A stretch of 64,000 nt of DNA from Larkinella soli (GTDB lineage: Bacteria > Bacteroidota > Bacteroidia > Cytophagales > Spirosomataceae), in the NCBI RefSeq assembly GCF_003703975.1, contig NZ_ML112622.1, positions 1,971 to 65,970 on the forward strand, in the 5' to 3' direction. The translations under genes were made by a program, and so were the position numbers. Positions 58,848 through 64,000 of the stretch are shown here, one piece after another (the stretch's first letter is position 1; each line of letters starts with the position of its first letter). The notes under the pieces were generated by a model. It had not been told where the DNA came from and did no database searches. It saw only the letters and a list, made by a program, of their open reading frames with translations.

Positions 58848-58921
<74 letters not shown>

Positions 58922-58989: not shown

Positions 58990-59102
58990 CTTTATCGGAC
59001 TTTATCGAAAGAAGTACGGAATAATCAAGTAAATCCGTCCCCTATTCCGTCCCCCGTATTTAGAATATTTGTAACTTGGAACTGACCAAACCAAGTTTAC
59101 CA

Positions 59103-60434
59103 ATGAAAACCATATCGGATAAGGACATTAAGTTCTTACTCAAAGACGCCCGCGCCGACCGGCCAACGCTCATTAACCTTGTTTTCCGCTACGATAACGC
59201 CCGGTTCAAGACTTCTACCGGCCTCACGATTGAACCTTACCAGTGGGACATTTCCAACCAACGGGCGTACACCAATCAAAAGAGCCGGGCCGCTCGTGAA
59301 CCGTTTGAAACAATTAACGCTCACCTCGACCGTTGGCGGTCTGCCACGAAAAAGGTATTGAACGCGCTGCAACTGGCTCAAATCCCTTTTGACAATGAAA
59401 CGATCAAACAGCACCTCGACACAGAGTTAGGCCGGGCCAAAAAAGTCAAAGTAGTTGAGGAAAAAACGGAATCGTTTACTGAATACATTGAGCGGTTTGT
59501 GAAAGAGGCTGAGGCCGGAAAACGGCTAAACTCAAAAAGTATGCGGTATGCCCGTTACACATTGGCCGGGTACATGAAGTTAAAACGAATCCTAGAGCGC
59601 TACCAGGCCGAAACCCGTAACGGCATTGATTACAATGACTTTTCACTCGATTATTACCACGCCTTCAAACTTTGGTTAACCGGCCGTGGCCTGACGCTCA
59701 ATTACGTTGGTACATTGCTCAAAGACCTTAAAGTAATGTTGAAACAGGCTCATGCCGACGGACTGCACAGCAATAACGTTTATCAGCATCGGGATTTTAA
59801 AAAGTTGGTGGAGGACGTAGATAATGTGTACCTCACCGATGAGGAATTAACAAGACTCTACAACCTCGACCTATCCGCTAACGCCCGACTAGACCGGGTT
59901 CGTGACCTGTTTCTGATTGGCTGTTACACTGGCCTTCGGTTTTCCGACTTCTCAGAGTTACGACCTGAAAATATTACCCACAACGGGCGTATCCTGACGC
60001 GTAAGACGCTCAAAACCTCTGAACGAGTTTCTATACCCCTCAACCCTAAAGTCCTTTCTATCCTCAACAAATACGAAGGTATTCCCCCGCGCACGATTAC
60101 AAACCAGAAAATGAACGATTATCTGAAAGAGTTGTGCCGATGTGCCGGGCTGACAGACTCTGTAGAGGTGAGCCGGACCAAAGGAGGCAGGAAGGAAACG
60201 CGTTACATTGAAAAGTGTGAGATGGTAACAACTCACACCGCCCGCCGGTCTTTTGCCACCAATGCGTATTTGGCAAAGGTTCCGACCGTTGCTATTATGA
60301 AGATTACCGGGCACCGCTCGGAGGCTGTGTTTTTACGGTACATCAAAATTTCATCGGAGCAAAACGCACTATTGATGCTCGAACATCCACACTTTAACGG
60401 CTCGGCTGTACTTGTAGCGGGTAATTCGTATTAA
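59103..60434 (+). CDS. tyrosine-type site-specific integrase
   Basis: A 443-residue phage-type integrase of the Bacteroidota family. N-terminal Arm-binding region, then a SAM-like core-binding domain (~residues 120-230), then the catalytic domain with the active-site Arg in GCYTGLRFSDFSEL, HTARRSFATN (HxxR), GHRSEAVFLRY (His and the nucleophile Tyr near residue 411). All catalytic residues are present. ATG at 59103; TTG at 59076 is a possible longer start. Adjacent to a tRNA, it defines one end of a mobile element. Confidence 0.94.
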   Translation: MKTISDKDIKFLLKDARADRPTLINLVFRYDNARFKTSTGLTIEPYQWDISNQRAYTNQKSRAAREPFETINAHLDRWRSATKKVLNALQLAQIPFDNETIKQHLDTELGRAKKVKVVEEKTESFTEYIERFVKEAEAGKRLNSKSMRYARYTLAGYMKLKRILERYQAETRNGIDYNDFSLDYYHAFKLWLTGRGLTLNYVGTLLKDLKVMLKQAHADGLHSNNVYQHRDFKKLVEDVDNVYLTDEELTRLYNLDLSANARLDRVRDLFLIGCYTGLRFSDFSELRPENITHNGRILTRKTLKTSERVSIPLNPKVLSILNKYEGIPPRTITNQKMNDYLKELCRCAGLTDSVEVSRTKGGRKETRYIEKCEMVTTHTARRSFATNAYLAKVPTVAIMKITGHRSEAVFLRYIKISSEQNALLMLEHPHFNGSAVLVAGNSY

Positions 60435-60581: not shown

Positions 60582-61385
60582 ATGTTTTCTACTATGATCA
60601 CAGTCAGTAATTTGTTAAGGAGAGCAATCAATGGAATTGATTATTTAATAAGAAATAATAGCGACTTAATTTCTTCTCCTTATGAGATTGAAGTCTATGT
60701 GAAAAAGGCGAAAAGTTCAATTATGAGTCTAGAGCGTTTGGACGATGATGATCTACTAGATCTATTTAAAAATGAATTAGCTACTAACTATTTGAATAAT
60801 AATAAAAGAACTGAACAGTTTCAGGTAATCAATAAAATCCACAGTCAGGTGTTTATGCTATGGGACACTTTAGGTGTATATCAAAATACAGACCTATCGC
60901 ATTTAAGTAAAATAGTACCCGATGCTGATATTTACGTCTTTGAGCGAATTAGGCATTACGCAAATGAAGCATCTTCCGAAAATATATGGGAGCGGGCCTA
61001 CTTTACAATTCACGAAATAATAGATATATATTTTAGCGAATCTGAACGAACTAACCACTTGTTATCAACTTTTAATGCAGAAGCCATACAAGTAGCACTG
61101 TCTCAGAGGCCAAACACAAAATTTAAGTGGAGAGGGAGTAAAACGGATTTTGCAGAACTGGTCTGGGCATTAGCAAAGTCACAAAGAATTATTGATAATA
61201 CAACAAACAAACCGGTGACCATAGATATGCTAGCCAACCAACTAGGTTCACTGTTTGGAATGTCTATAAGTAATCCAAAGCAATTAATGCAGGCGCGTAA
61301 AGACTCTTTTAAGGCTTCTGAAGATGGTATAACGTTTATTACCTCCCTATCTGAATTGGTGGAACAATACATAGGTAGTAAGTGA
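60582..61385 (+). CDS. RteC-like protein
   Basis: A 267-residue protein. The C-terminal part, FKWRGSKTDFAELVWALAKS followed by a helical segment, resembles the RteC domain of Bacteroides conjugative transposons, where RteC stimulates excision genes. The N-terminus (residues 1-100) is a poorly conserved helical region. It is very AT-rich compared with the integrase and the downstream genes, suggesting a separate source. Located between int and xis, it could control excision; this is inference from position. Confidence 0.65.
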   Translation: MFSTMITVSNLLRRAINGIDYLIRNNSDLISSPYEIEVYVKKAKSSIMSLERLDDDDLLDLFKNELATNYLNNNKRTEQFQVINKIHSQVFMLWDTLGVYQNTDLSHLSKIVPDADIYVFERIRHYANEASSENIWERAYFTIHEIIDIYFSESERTNHLLSTFNAEAIQVALSQRPNTKFKWRGSKTDFAELVWALAKSQRIIDNTTNKPVTIDMLANQLGSLFGMSISNPKQLMQARKDSFKASEDGITFITSLSELVEQYIGSK

Positions 61386-61477
61386 TTTAATTATACTTGG
61401 TTATAGTCAAAGTTATAGTATAACTCTGAACAGAACTGTTCCTGCCAACTTTGGGCCGTACCAAATCAGATACGGCC

Positions 61478-61813
61478 ATGTACGGCACAGTAACACAAAT
61501 CCAGATTACACCCGACCAGTTGACCGAACTGGTACAAAAGGCGGTTCGCTCTGAGCTAGCGAATTATACCCCGCCCGCCCCCGAAGGATTCGACCTTCCT
61601 GAACTGTTGACGCGCCGACAAACAGCCGACGTTCTGCAAGTGAGCCTAACCACCTTGCACGATTGGGCAACGGATACCGACGACCGCCCGGCCGTACTAG
61701 TTCCACGCAAAATCAACGGGCGCGTACGCTACCAAAAAACGGATGTATTGGCCGCGCTCAAACAACCGCGCCGGTTTAAACCCAGTAAGGCCAGGGAGGG
61801 CCAAGGTTTATGA
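61478..61813 (+). CDS. excisionase-type helix-turn-helix protein
   Basis: A 111-residue protein with a winged-helix MerR-like domain of the excisionase family: LLTRRQTADVLQVSLTTLHD (HTH) and the wing INGRVRYQKTDVLAAL. A coiled N-terminal region (LTELVQKAVRSELA) may dimerise. ATG at 61478 is used; the frame reaches 61451. It overlaps the next small gene by 4 bp (ATGA). It probably directs the integrase towards excision or represses element genes. Confidence 0.85.
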   Translation: MYGTVTQIQITPDQLTELVQKAVRSELANYTPPAPEGFDLPELLTRRQTADVLQVSLTTLHDWATDTDDRPAVLVPRKINGRVRYQKTDVLAALKQPRRFKPSKAREGQGL

Positions 61814-62046
61814 ATATGGTTTTAAACCTATCTGACCAGCATCATACCAAATACACCCGTATTTCTGAAGTTGGCGTAACACTAAAGGCACTATTACAGG
61901 CATGCAGTGAATACGAAAATGAGATAACTCAAACGAGTGACCCCGAGCGGGTAATGATTTTGCGGCTTGAACAAGCAAAGACAAGAGAAGTGTTTCAAAA
62001 ATTAATGGATACTATTGATGAGGCTAGGGAGGGCCGGAACCAATGA
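61810..62046 (+). CDS. small hypothetical protein
   Basis: A 78-residue acidic, largely helical protein. It has no recognisable motif. It overlaps both neighbours with ATGA-type junctions, so it is translated with the excisionase-type gene and the following one. Confidence 0.6.
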   Translation: MNMVLNLSDQHHTKYTRISEVGVTLKALLQACSEYENEITQTSDPERVMILRLEQAKTREVFQKLMDTIDEAREGRNQ

Positions 62047-62483
62047 CGTATCTACCTACCTCCCACCATCTGACGTACCGGCTTGATGTTGACCGGGGCC
62101 GGTACATTGTCAAAGAATGTGAGCCGGGGTTTTGCAAGGTTCCGCGTGAATTGATTGTTGAGGAACGGCGATTTAATGACAACATAGACGCCGAATTTAT
62201 CCTACGTGGTCCCGAAACCAAGAAAAAGGAAACAGGTACGGGTAAAATGTCAGCACGAAAGATTACGTTCTTTACCGGGCTGCAACGGACCGACTACGCG
62301 GGCGTTTACATCGGTAATGTGGTAACGTTCGGGCAGGGAGGTAGTAAAGTCCGCAACGGGGTTATCGTTCAATTCTCGACCGATGCCGGGCGTATGACTC
62401 TCCGCTACTTCCCGGCTTATTATCCATTCCCTAAAGACCGGGCCGCCTTTGTAGCGTCCATTGTAGGCCGGGGGCTTCTTTAA
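62043..62483 (+). CDS. hypothetical protein of the mobile element
   Basis: A 146-residue protein. The N-terminus (RYIVKECEPGFCKVPRELIV) has two Cys; the C-terminal half is beta-rich with Tyr/Gly and ends SIVGRGLL. No family is recognised. It is coupled by a 4-bp overlap to the preceding small gene and followed after 75 bp by the replication-like gene, so it may act in replication or its control. Confidence 0.6.
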   Translation: MTYLPTSHHLTYRLDVDRGRYIVKECEPGFCKVPRELIVEERRFNDNIDAEFILRGPETKKKETGTGKMSARKITFFTGLQRTDYAGVYIGNVVTFGQGGSKVRNGVIVQFSTDAGRMTLRYFPAYYPFPKDRAAFVASIVGRGLL

Positions 62484-62558: not shown

Positions 62559-64000
62559 ATGTTCGACGGAATCACCATACTTGACGTTTCGGTAAACGTT
62601 GATGCACTGCTGACAAACGAACGTTTGACGTTTGGAACGTTGGTTGATGAGCAAAACGGGGTCATTCTTAATCCTGTCAGAAAGACACATGACCGGGGGC
62701 TAACCTTTCGGCTCGTTCCCCGCCGAACCGGGCAGGGGTATCGGGTTGAGGTAAAAGGGAGTCTGCACAAATTCCACAACAACGGGTTGCATAATGCCGA
62801 TCAATACACTGTCAACGATCTATTGCTGACGCTGGATCAGTTGTCAACTGAATACGGTTTTAACCTGGTTGATTCGGTCATCAATAACATAGAGTTTGGC
62901 GTAAACGTTGAATTGCCGTTTCCAGTTGCCAAAGTCTTAGAAAACCTCATCTGTTACAAAAACCAGCCGTTTGAGGTGGATAGCCATAGCCCGATCCCGT
63001 ATTACGTCTGTGATCGACAACGCTACGTCGTAAAAATGTATGACAAAGGCAAACAGAAAGGGCTAGCCGCTAACGTGCTACGGTTTGAGATTCGGGTTAG
63101 AAAGATGAGGTACTTTGACGGTACGGGGGTTCGACTGCACACCCTGGCCGATTTACTAAACGTAGTTAACTACGGACCGTTAGGCCTTCTACTGGTCGAT
63201 ACGTTCAGTAATATTCTGTTTGACGACCCGGCTATTGATCCAAAAGGCATGAGCAACGATCAGCGGCATATCTACCAGCAAGGCCGGAACCCGCGTTACT
63301 GGCATACGCCCGACAATCTAACGCCAAAACAGGCCGCAACACACCGCCAACGTTTGAGCCGGAACAAAAACCGTTTCCGGGCCTTGCTCGATCAGTACGG
63401 TAGTAACTGGCAAGGTGAGGTTGCCGCGCTCATCCGTCAAACGTGGGACCAATTAACTAGCGTTGACGACCACTTACTGACACGCATTAATCAACACAAA
63501 ACAGCCTGGCAAAATCTAACAAAACCTAACATTTGGAACGGTTTCACGGGGAGAGAATACAGTGAGGAAACAGTGATAAACGAGGGGGAAACCTGTCACA
63601 AATTAACCGGTTTTACCCCGCCTGTCTGTCACGAATTAACCGACTCCCCAACACCCCCACTGTCACAAATTAACCCTTTATATTCCGGGGTACCTTGTGA
63701 CAGCAGGAAATCCGACCAGCCGCGCCTGGTAGTGTGCCCTGTAACGGGCGTCATGATCGAACAGCCACGGCCGGGGCAAAGGTTTGTTTCAAGTGTCGTT
63801 TTGCGGAATGACGACGACTTATTGCTGACGCTCAACCGCCAACATCGGAAATACGCCAAAGGCTCGAAAGAGGACCAATACAGCCGGGCGGCTCACAATG
63901 TCCGCAACCGGGAGAGTAACGAGCGCAACAACCTGGCCCGGCGATTGCGTCGTGTACTCGACACGCCCGGTTTGTTTCCACCTGCTGAGGGAATCCGCCT
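62559..64000 (+). CDS. putative replication initiator protein (partial, runs off window)
   Basis: An open frame of at least 480 codons starting at ATG 62559 and still open at the window end. The first ~300 residues resemble phage/plasmid II/X-type replication proteins of Bacteroidota (VVKMYDKGKQKG and LRFEIRVRKMRYFDG are the recognisable stretches). Residues ~325-385 are a Ser/Thr/Pro-rich linker carrying the DNA repeats described separately. The C-terminal part has CPVTGVMIEQPRPGQRFVS and a basic helix. Function is inferred from similarity and from the origin-like repeats inside it. Confidence 0.6.
   Translation, partial: MFDGITILDVSVNVDALLTNERLTFGTLVDEQNGVILNPVRKTHDRGLTFRLVPRRTGQGYRVEVKGSLHKFHNNGLHNADQYTVNDLLLTLDQLSTEYGFNLVDSVINNIEFGVNVELPFPVAKVLENLICYKNQPFEVDSHSPIPYYVCDRQRYVVKMYDKGKQKGLAANVLRFEIRVRKMRYFDGTGVRLHTLADLLNVVNYGPLGLLLVDTFSNILFDDPAIDPKGMSNDQRHIYQQGRNPRYWHTPDNLTPKQAATHRQRLSRNKNRFRALLDQYGSNWQGEVAALIRQTWDQLTSVDDHLLTRINQHKTAWQNLTKPNIWNGFTGREYSEETVINEGETCHKLTGFTPPVCHELTDSPTPPLSQINPLYSGVPCDSRKSDQPRLVVCPVTGVMIEQPRPGQRFVSSVVLRNDDDLLLTLNRQHRKYAKGSKEDQYSRAAHNVRNRESNERNNLARRLRRVLDTPGLFPPAEGIR
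63593..63703. repeat. Iteron-like direct repeats inside the replication-like ORF
   Basis: Three copies of CTGTCACAAATTAACC (63593-63608, 63626-63641 with one change, 63660-63675), start-to-start spacing 33 and 34 bp, plus an inverted TTGTGACAG at 63695-63703. The first two share a reading frame; the third is shifted, so the protein does not repeat in the same way while the DNA does. This pattern suggests binding sites for an initiator. Confidence 0.82.

Follow-up and report, generated by a model that had tools for sequence, protein, structure and literature searches.

Plasmids of the pT181 family keep the double-strand origin of rolling-circle replication within rep (PMC5703833, PMC4797284), and the integrative elements ICEBs1 and Tn916 are described as replicating by rolling circle after excision, with their MOBT proteins driving both transfer and replication (PMC5714925, PMC9371924, PMC5704250). 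The MOBT nic site is placed in a hairpin loop, with CT'AA as the nick motif, and relaxases of the ICESt3 type recognize a binding site with the consensus TGTCAC (PMC9371924). Here, we analyzed a 64,000-nucleotide (nt) stretch of the Larkinella soli genome (Bacteroidota; contig NZ_ML112622.1; hereafter, the window), which contains the rep gene of an element integrated at a transfer RNA (tRNA) gene and, within rep, a short array of repeats. This array is, in our assessment, likely to be the rolling-circle double-strand origin of the integrative element, carried inside the gene of its own initiator (Rep), as its anatomy matches such origins: binding repeats combined with a hairpin that bears a putative nick site at its tip. 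The nick-site motifs of phiX174, M13 and pT181 prompted the initial idea.

The locus resembles pT181 and pC221 (RepC/RepD) in its predicted initiator fold, the spacing of its active-site residues, a hairpin with a putative nick region, the placement of the proposed origin inside the rep coding region and a putative element-specific recognition sequence, but differs from these plasmids in being integrative, in its occurrence in Bacteroidota and in lacking a PF02486 match. In addition, binding repeats in pT181-type origins take the form of a distinct inverted repeat located downstream (ICRIII), whereas here direct copies of the hairpin-stem sequence lie upstream. With the MOBT systems of ICEBs1, Tn916 and ICESt3, and with integrative mobilizable elements (IMEs) of the Rep_trans type, it shares integration, a Rep_trans-related protein, a hairpin that would be nicked and TGTCAC in the putative binding sites. 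The MOBT systems described are from Firmicutes, whereas the present elements are from Bacteroidota; moreover, most MOBT proteins of integrative and conjugative elements are described as carrying an N-terminal helix-turn-helix (HTH), and RelSt3 as binding an inverted repeat 68 nt downstream of nic. The few IMEs of Bacteroidetes known in 2017 were counted among those with canonical relaxases (PMC5704250). The RepA_N system of pSK41 is similar in having several Rep boxes central in rep, in linker-encoding DNA (PMC5703833), but uses theta replication, which involves no strand nicking, and a RepA_N initiator. Filamentous-phage gene II (PF05144, Phage_CRI) offers a partial likeness: one of the 45 family members matches this profile (E 5e-4), and similar motifs occur in M13 (PMC5714925). 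In contrast, the window Rep has no PF05144 match, and no phage structural family was found in the 16 element proteins scanned.

The repeat array and hairpin unit

The rep gene and the parts of the array are as follows (window positions):

62559..64000, + strand, rep gene encoding 502 amino acids, with its stop codon at 64065-64067 beyond the window end (open reading frame [ORF], predicted structure)
63593..63608, + strand, direct repeat 1, putative Rep binding repeat, CTGTCACAAATTAACC; 16/16 identical in G002
63626..63641, + strand, direct repeat 2, one mismatch (G for A); 16/16 identical in G002
63661..63675, + strand, direct repeat 3, which is the left arm of the 42-nt hairpin unit (repeat scan, geometry scan, DNA fold)
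63676..63687, + strand, 12-nt centre CTTTATATTCCG, putative nick region; the consensus among loci resembles nTT(T/G)AnATATAG
63688..63702, + strand, right arm of the hairpin unit, inverted repeat copy (repeat scan, geometry scan, DNA fold)

The sequence CTGTCAC(A/G)AATTAACC starts at 63593, 63626 and 63660, which confirms the three 16-bp copies, 33 and 34 bp apart, reported by a first-pass annotation of the window; copy two carries the single mismatch and copy three (63660-63675) is an exact match. The inverted partial copy noted beyond them is also present (63688-63703), but it begins 12 bp past the end of the third copy (28 bp start to start) rather than 20 bp. The third repeat and the inverted copy belong to a single unit of 42 nt (63661-63702), made up of a 15-nt arm, a 12-nt centre and a 15-nt arm; the inverted copy is better described as the second arm of a hairpin, and hence as a main part of the site. 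Folded as single-stranded DNA, the unit reached -8.2 kcal/mol (z -3.9), a value matched by one in 200 shuffled sequences. A terminator was set aside in view of the 12-nt loop and the position within an ORF, although no terminator scan was run.

In the organism's own 6.9-Mb genome (82 contigs), TGTCACRAATTAACC occurs exactly three times, always within the array, compared with 0 occurrences of the reversed control pattern. A scan of the whole window allowing 3 mismatches gave five matches where 1.13 were expected, four of them within the 110-bp array stretch. The in-frame products of the three copies are CHKLT, CHELT and LSQIN; as had been claimed, the 34-bp step shifts the frame of copy three.

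The window repeat starts with TGTCAC, the six-base binding-site consensus given for ICESt3-type MOBT relaxases (PMC9371924). This may be a coincidence, since other elements of the family differ after TGTC.

Conservation of the unit among relatives

To compare related loci, 88 placed loci were reduced to 65 distinct ones by removing those that share an identical N-domain stretch, and at each locus the stretch after the conserved N-terminal part was set against one control stretch in the same gene; many weaker or partial matches were left outside this sample. Scored by pairing only, a significant inverted repeat was present in 33/65 linkers and 5/65 controls, and direct repeats were present in 35/65 and 2/65, respectively. 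When the 15-12-15 geometry was combined with a centre matrix, 52/65 linkers scored above the best of all 65 controls (cut of 14.7, derived from the controls), a figure that is partly circular, as the matrix was seeded from the same 65 loci. The sequence CTTNAATATAG is present within 3 mismatches in 23 of the 33 hairpins that pairing alone had identified, compared with 4.7 expected.

A later run with method and cut fixed served as the check. It comprised 21 loci, or 15 new ones once six duplicates were dropped, of which 10 passed, including the distant phage record MT835707.1. The cut and the pairing do not always agree: L157, L167 and L170 fell below it though 12-14 of 15 pairs form, while L161 passed with only 8 pairs. 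Four further loci lie outside the 65, and one of these (L020) has a strong unit (score 19.2, 15/15 pairs).

Across the 52 loci, the unit is 42 nt long in 48 and 41 or 43 nt in 4, and it can be traced in relatives down to ~30% protein identity. It lies wholly within the Rep reading frame in 48/52 loci, outside it in two and across the stop codon in two (L093, L121, L082, L067). The two arms pair in 578/720 cells, compared with 370 ± 13 for arms exchanged between loci, although the former figure is inflated by units having been selected partly for pairing. Compared with G002 (taken as Larkinella sp. C7), the window has the same base at 76/76 positions of the repeats and unit, at 28/35 positions of the two spacers and at 1327/1503 positions of the gene.

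Repeat sequence, polarity and spacing

The arm word differs between elements, as illustrated by the window (TGTCACAAATTAACC), Spirosoma fluviale L044 (TGTCCCGTTTTAACC), L123 (TGTCAGCAATTAACC), Fibrella L049 (TGTCCACTTTTAACC) and Runella zeae L052 (TGTAGCAAATTTACC), while the arms and direct copies within one element largely agree. At least one same-strand upstream copy occurs in 45/52 loci; the other seven lack one and still keep the hairpin. In total, 78 upstream copies were counted versus 11.1 expected, and 9 downstream versus 9.7, with up to 3 mismatches in 13 allowed, such that a few may be chance. The array is therefore polar. Copies occupy more than one reading frame in 43/45 loci. These frames, the units outside or across the stop codon, and the pattern of identity with G002 place selection on the DNA, bearing out the earlier claim of conservation at this level rather than that of the protein.

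Repeat divergence follows that of Rep to different degrees along the protein (36 loci; r of 0.56 for the catalytic, 0.45 for the helical and 0.23 for the C-terminal part), and part of this correlation could arise from shared ancestry alone.

Distances from the nearest copy to the unit cluster at 33-34, 45-47, 55-57 and 66-69 bp (39/45 loci); the remaining six fall beyond these classes (100 three times, 43, 32 and 31), as do 13/71 of all spacings. The best-fitting period is 11.4 bp (R 0.90; 42 nearest spacings up to 75 bp), with 10.5 (0.82), 11.0 (0.88) and 12 (0.87) fitting nearly as well, and when only distinct spacing values are used, 6/300 random sets fit at least as well. An upstream copy is present in 12 of the 15 later loci, and in every one of these 12 the nearest distance belongs to one of the classes (34, 45, 46, 55, 56, 57 and 67). 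Because supercoiled bacterial DNA has ~11 bp per turn (PMC8501960), close to this period, a natural reading of the spacing is that binding occurs along a single face of the helix; the exact period is poorly fixed.

The encoded protein

Rep is predicted to consist of a sheet-rich catalytic part (to about residue 220), a helical part (to about 321) and a C-terminal part (from about 390). Between the latter two lies a linker (residues 324-386) that is predicted to be disordered, with a predicted local distance difference test score (pLDDT) below 50, and as the array falls in the DNA encoding this linker, an origin would fit within rep. The AlphaFold model (480 residues) has a mean pLDDT of 85.8, and the N-terminal 322 residues modelled alone reach 96.0. 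Rolling-circle initiators (4cwe, 4cij and 4cwc) were the best VIA-align matches of the model, and the predicted structure has the Rep_trans fold. The suggestion that the array-bearing gene encodes an initiator is thus upheld at the level of predicted fold.

The active-site motifs described for Rep_trans proteins are RxD, T/SxY/ExG, YxKxxE and W/LxRxE (PMC4797284, PMC5714925). In the present family, K159-Y161-K163 and R175-E177 are invariant, with the same spacing as R189-Y191-K193 and R212-E214 of Rep_trans (PMC4797284, PMC5714925); the position of the YxKxxE glutamate is Q166 in the window Rep, and motif II has no clear counterpart. Rep thus folds like Rep_trans initiators, according to its model, and probably works like one, but is not filed here as a PF02486 member because it has no match to that profile and its motif I differs. 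Profile searches of the PDB with Rep gave no believable relative.

Several related ORFs depart from this layout. Some, such as L121 and L088 (the same genes as L026 and L040), lack the C-terminal domain and keep the unit; therefore, the N-terminal half of Rep may suffice for recognition. In Dyadobacter alkalitolerans (L061:10001-12517, the same gene as L031), one uninterrupted frame of 839 amino acids leads from Rep across five repeats and the unit to a complete tyrosine-integrase domain, as though two genes had been fused at the origin. In a Spirosoma metagenome-assembled genome (L025, the same gene as L047), rep is split into two frames after ~140 codons, and two repeats and the unit persist. 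The L. soli genome also has a second, distant rep-like gene (G000:C16:673-1518, L023) with a weak unit and a layout resembling L167 and L170.

The integrative element

Upstream of rep, the element comprises the following features:

58848..58921, + strand, tRNA-Thr (cgt), the integration site on the attL side (ARAGORN)
59076..60434, + strand, tyrosine integrase (PF00589 E 1.6e-12, PF13102 E 1.4e-07, phrog_1 E 2.8e-33)
60582..61385, + strand, RteC-like regulator gene (PF09357 RteC, 29.5 bits, cut-off 25.3)
61451..61813, + strand, HTH gene, excisionase/regulator-like (PF12728 24.2 bits, below the cut-off of 27; phrog_668, phrog_66)
61810..62046, + strand, small ORF of 78 amino acids, no confident family
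62043..62483, + strand, small ORF before rep, no confident family; homologue upstream of rep in 24/54 loci

The gene order is thus tRNA-Thr, integrase, RteC-like gene, HTH gene, two small ORFs and rep, in agreement with the earlier claim of an element at a tRNA. Its far end lies beyond the window, where an imperfect copy of the tRNA-Thr 3' end (AGGTTCAACTCCCGTAGGAGGCTC, 2 mismatches in 24) starts at 77084 on the window scale and is followed by a copy of ~96 nt of the terminator region behind the tRNA (77084-77187 in all; 75-81% alike in most comparisons). The 3'-end repeat escaped an exact search as far as 77,030, since the far copy starts just past that point and has mismatches. From tRNA-Thr to the second tRNA 3' end at ~77.1 kb, the element measures 18.2 kb; elements at the same tRNA in the same genus are ~12.8 kb (G002) and ~10.8 kb (G001). 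Having an integrase and att-like repeats at a specific site, it resembles an IME in this respect and may be able to excise.

The cargo behind rep includes an MmeI-type restriction-modification gene, CMD proteins, major facilitator superfamily and TonB-dependent transporters, and a response regulator. The MmeI-type gene (window scale 64060-67505) occupies two overlapping frames here and one long ORF in G002. No transfer-apparatus family was found in the 16 element proteins scanned, with the ORF at 74748-75179 and short ORFs outside the scan. In another genome of the genus (L140, G008:C12:1-7000), only fragments similar to the 3' part of rep and to the MmeI region stand beside the same tRNA-Thr, probably as a decayed element.

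Comparable surroundings recur among the relatives. In 40/54 loci, a same-strand integrase gene starts 2.3-5.7 kb before rep (three of the others have an integrase elsewhere and 11 have none, several of these being on short contigs), and an HTH gene lies upstream of rep in 47/54. A tRNA or transfer-messenger RNA (tmRNA) gene was found in 26/35 loci scanned, and a copy of at least 15 nt of its 3' end lies across rep in 16/25 loci tested, not counting that of the window itself. Among open-licence PMC papers, we found none describing these elements.

Proposed mechanism and alternative explanations

Under the rolling-circle interpretation, Rep would bind the direct repeats as well as the matching sequence in the hairpin stem, and this binding would favour cruciform extrusion of the 42-nt inverted unit. 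The 12-nt centre exposed in this way would be nicked by the catalytic tyrosine, probably Tyr161, and the free 3' end would prime synthesis of the leading strand on the excised circle. Transfer could begin from the same nick, which would make mobilization possible. The repeat sequence would act as a specificity code, different from one element to another. The origin iterons proposed by the first-pass annotation therefore stand as an origin-like architecture, but one with the anatomy of rolling-circle origins (nick hairpin and binding repeats) rather than theta-type iterons.

Several observations weigh against this interpretation. The relatives examined mostly carry the unit, as the earlier claim would have it, but 13/65 loci have none above the cut, and 5/15 later loci also fall below it (L157, L164, L167, L168 and L170). 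Likewise, L023 in the organism's own genome scores 13.0 (10/15 pairs, below the cut), L021 scores 11.6 (11/15 pairs, one upstream copy), and the same geometry scan found no unit in L037. All of these loci share ancestry and are not independent. The centre scores better on the opposite strand in 5/52 loci (L051, L052, L055, L067 and L095). The binding repeat of pT181 is downstream of the nick hairpin, whereas the excess of copies here is upstream only, in a downstream scan that covered arm-sequence copies and did not seek a site of differing sequence. Regarding the protein, the fold comparison rests on re-alignment of Foldseek's matches, PF02486 (Rep_trans) has no match in the window Rep or any of the 45 members, and a search of 19 genomes with this profile, including the organism's own, was empty, while a B. 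subtilis control was detected. Moreover, where Rep_trans has RxD as motif I, the present protein has NxE (N110xE112, with the E invariant). Database searches revealed no extrachromosomal form: a collection of 72,556 plasmid records gave no match, pattern searches of IMG/VR gave none and then one contig, and phage records gave one clear distant match, which is unannotated.

As a separate observation, the arms stay in place in the five loci with a reversed centre, and the origin may have flipped.

Alternatively, the site could be an origin of transfer only. The protein would then be a MOBT-like relaxase whose nick in the hairpin allows a conjugative element in the same cell to mobilize the DNA, and vegetative replication would not occur. 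In Tn916, ICEBs1 and IMEs, proteins of the Rep_trans type also act as relaxases (PMC5714925, PMC7563843, PMC5704250), the hairpin-loop nic site of MOBT and the TGTCAC at the start of the window repeat fit such a function (PMC9371924), as does the lack of transfer-apparatus families among the scanned proteins. However, replication of excised Tn916 and ICEBs1 is likewise initiated by their MOBT proteins (PMC5704250), and transfer alone seems to us an unlikely explanation.

A site-specific recombination site used by the element's integrase, with the unit as a tyrosine-recombinase core, is improbable. The 15-12-15 layout with direct copies resembles core and arm sites, the integrase is commonly found upstream on the same strand, and the D. 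alkalitolerans ORF continues through the unit into an integrase domain. Nonetheless, the att-like repeats are located at tRNA 3' ends, away from the unit, and a complete attachment core would be split when integrated.

Slightly less probable again is that the repeats are only operators or theta-type iterons for autoregulation or copy control, with an incidental hairpin. Iterons often serve control, and Rep or the HTH protein could bind the repeats. Against this, the hairpin is near-constant in length, has a recurrent centre and is kept where same-strand upstream copies are missing, and the window array lies over 1 kb past the rep start codon. Plain theta iterons are less likely for the same reason, the hairpin being more constant than the direct copies.

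Finally, a protein-level repeat or chance similarity, which the in-frame CHKLT and CHELT of two copies might suggest, was rejected as extremely improbable given the differing reading frames, the units beyond the ORF, the predicted disorder of the linker and the full DNA identity with G002 within a variable gene.

Many Bacteroidota relatives thus appear to share the rolling-circle origin-in-rep layout while the recognition sequence changes. More tentatively, these loci may represent a large, unnamed class of rolling-circle integrative elements of Bacteroidota (integrase, HTH gene, small ORF, rep) with an origin cassette in the rep linker. Their hairpin stem would be the binding repeat itself, one 15-bp word serving both binding and nicking, with extra copies placed upstream at whole helical turns (~11.4-bp steps). 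The word might diversify with Rep into many compatible types, and the origin might provide a junction at which the C-terminal domain is exchanged for another, an integrase among them.

Implications

For the tRNA-integrated islands that are common in Bacteroidota, these results provide a likely replication mechanism and an origin that can be recognized by its geometry, even though Rep has no family name in the libraries searched. They also provide an example of an origin placed within a gene, in DNA for a linker predicted to be disordered. As natural repeat variants are paired with their own Reps, initiator-origin recognition and helical phasing are directly testable in these elements.
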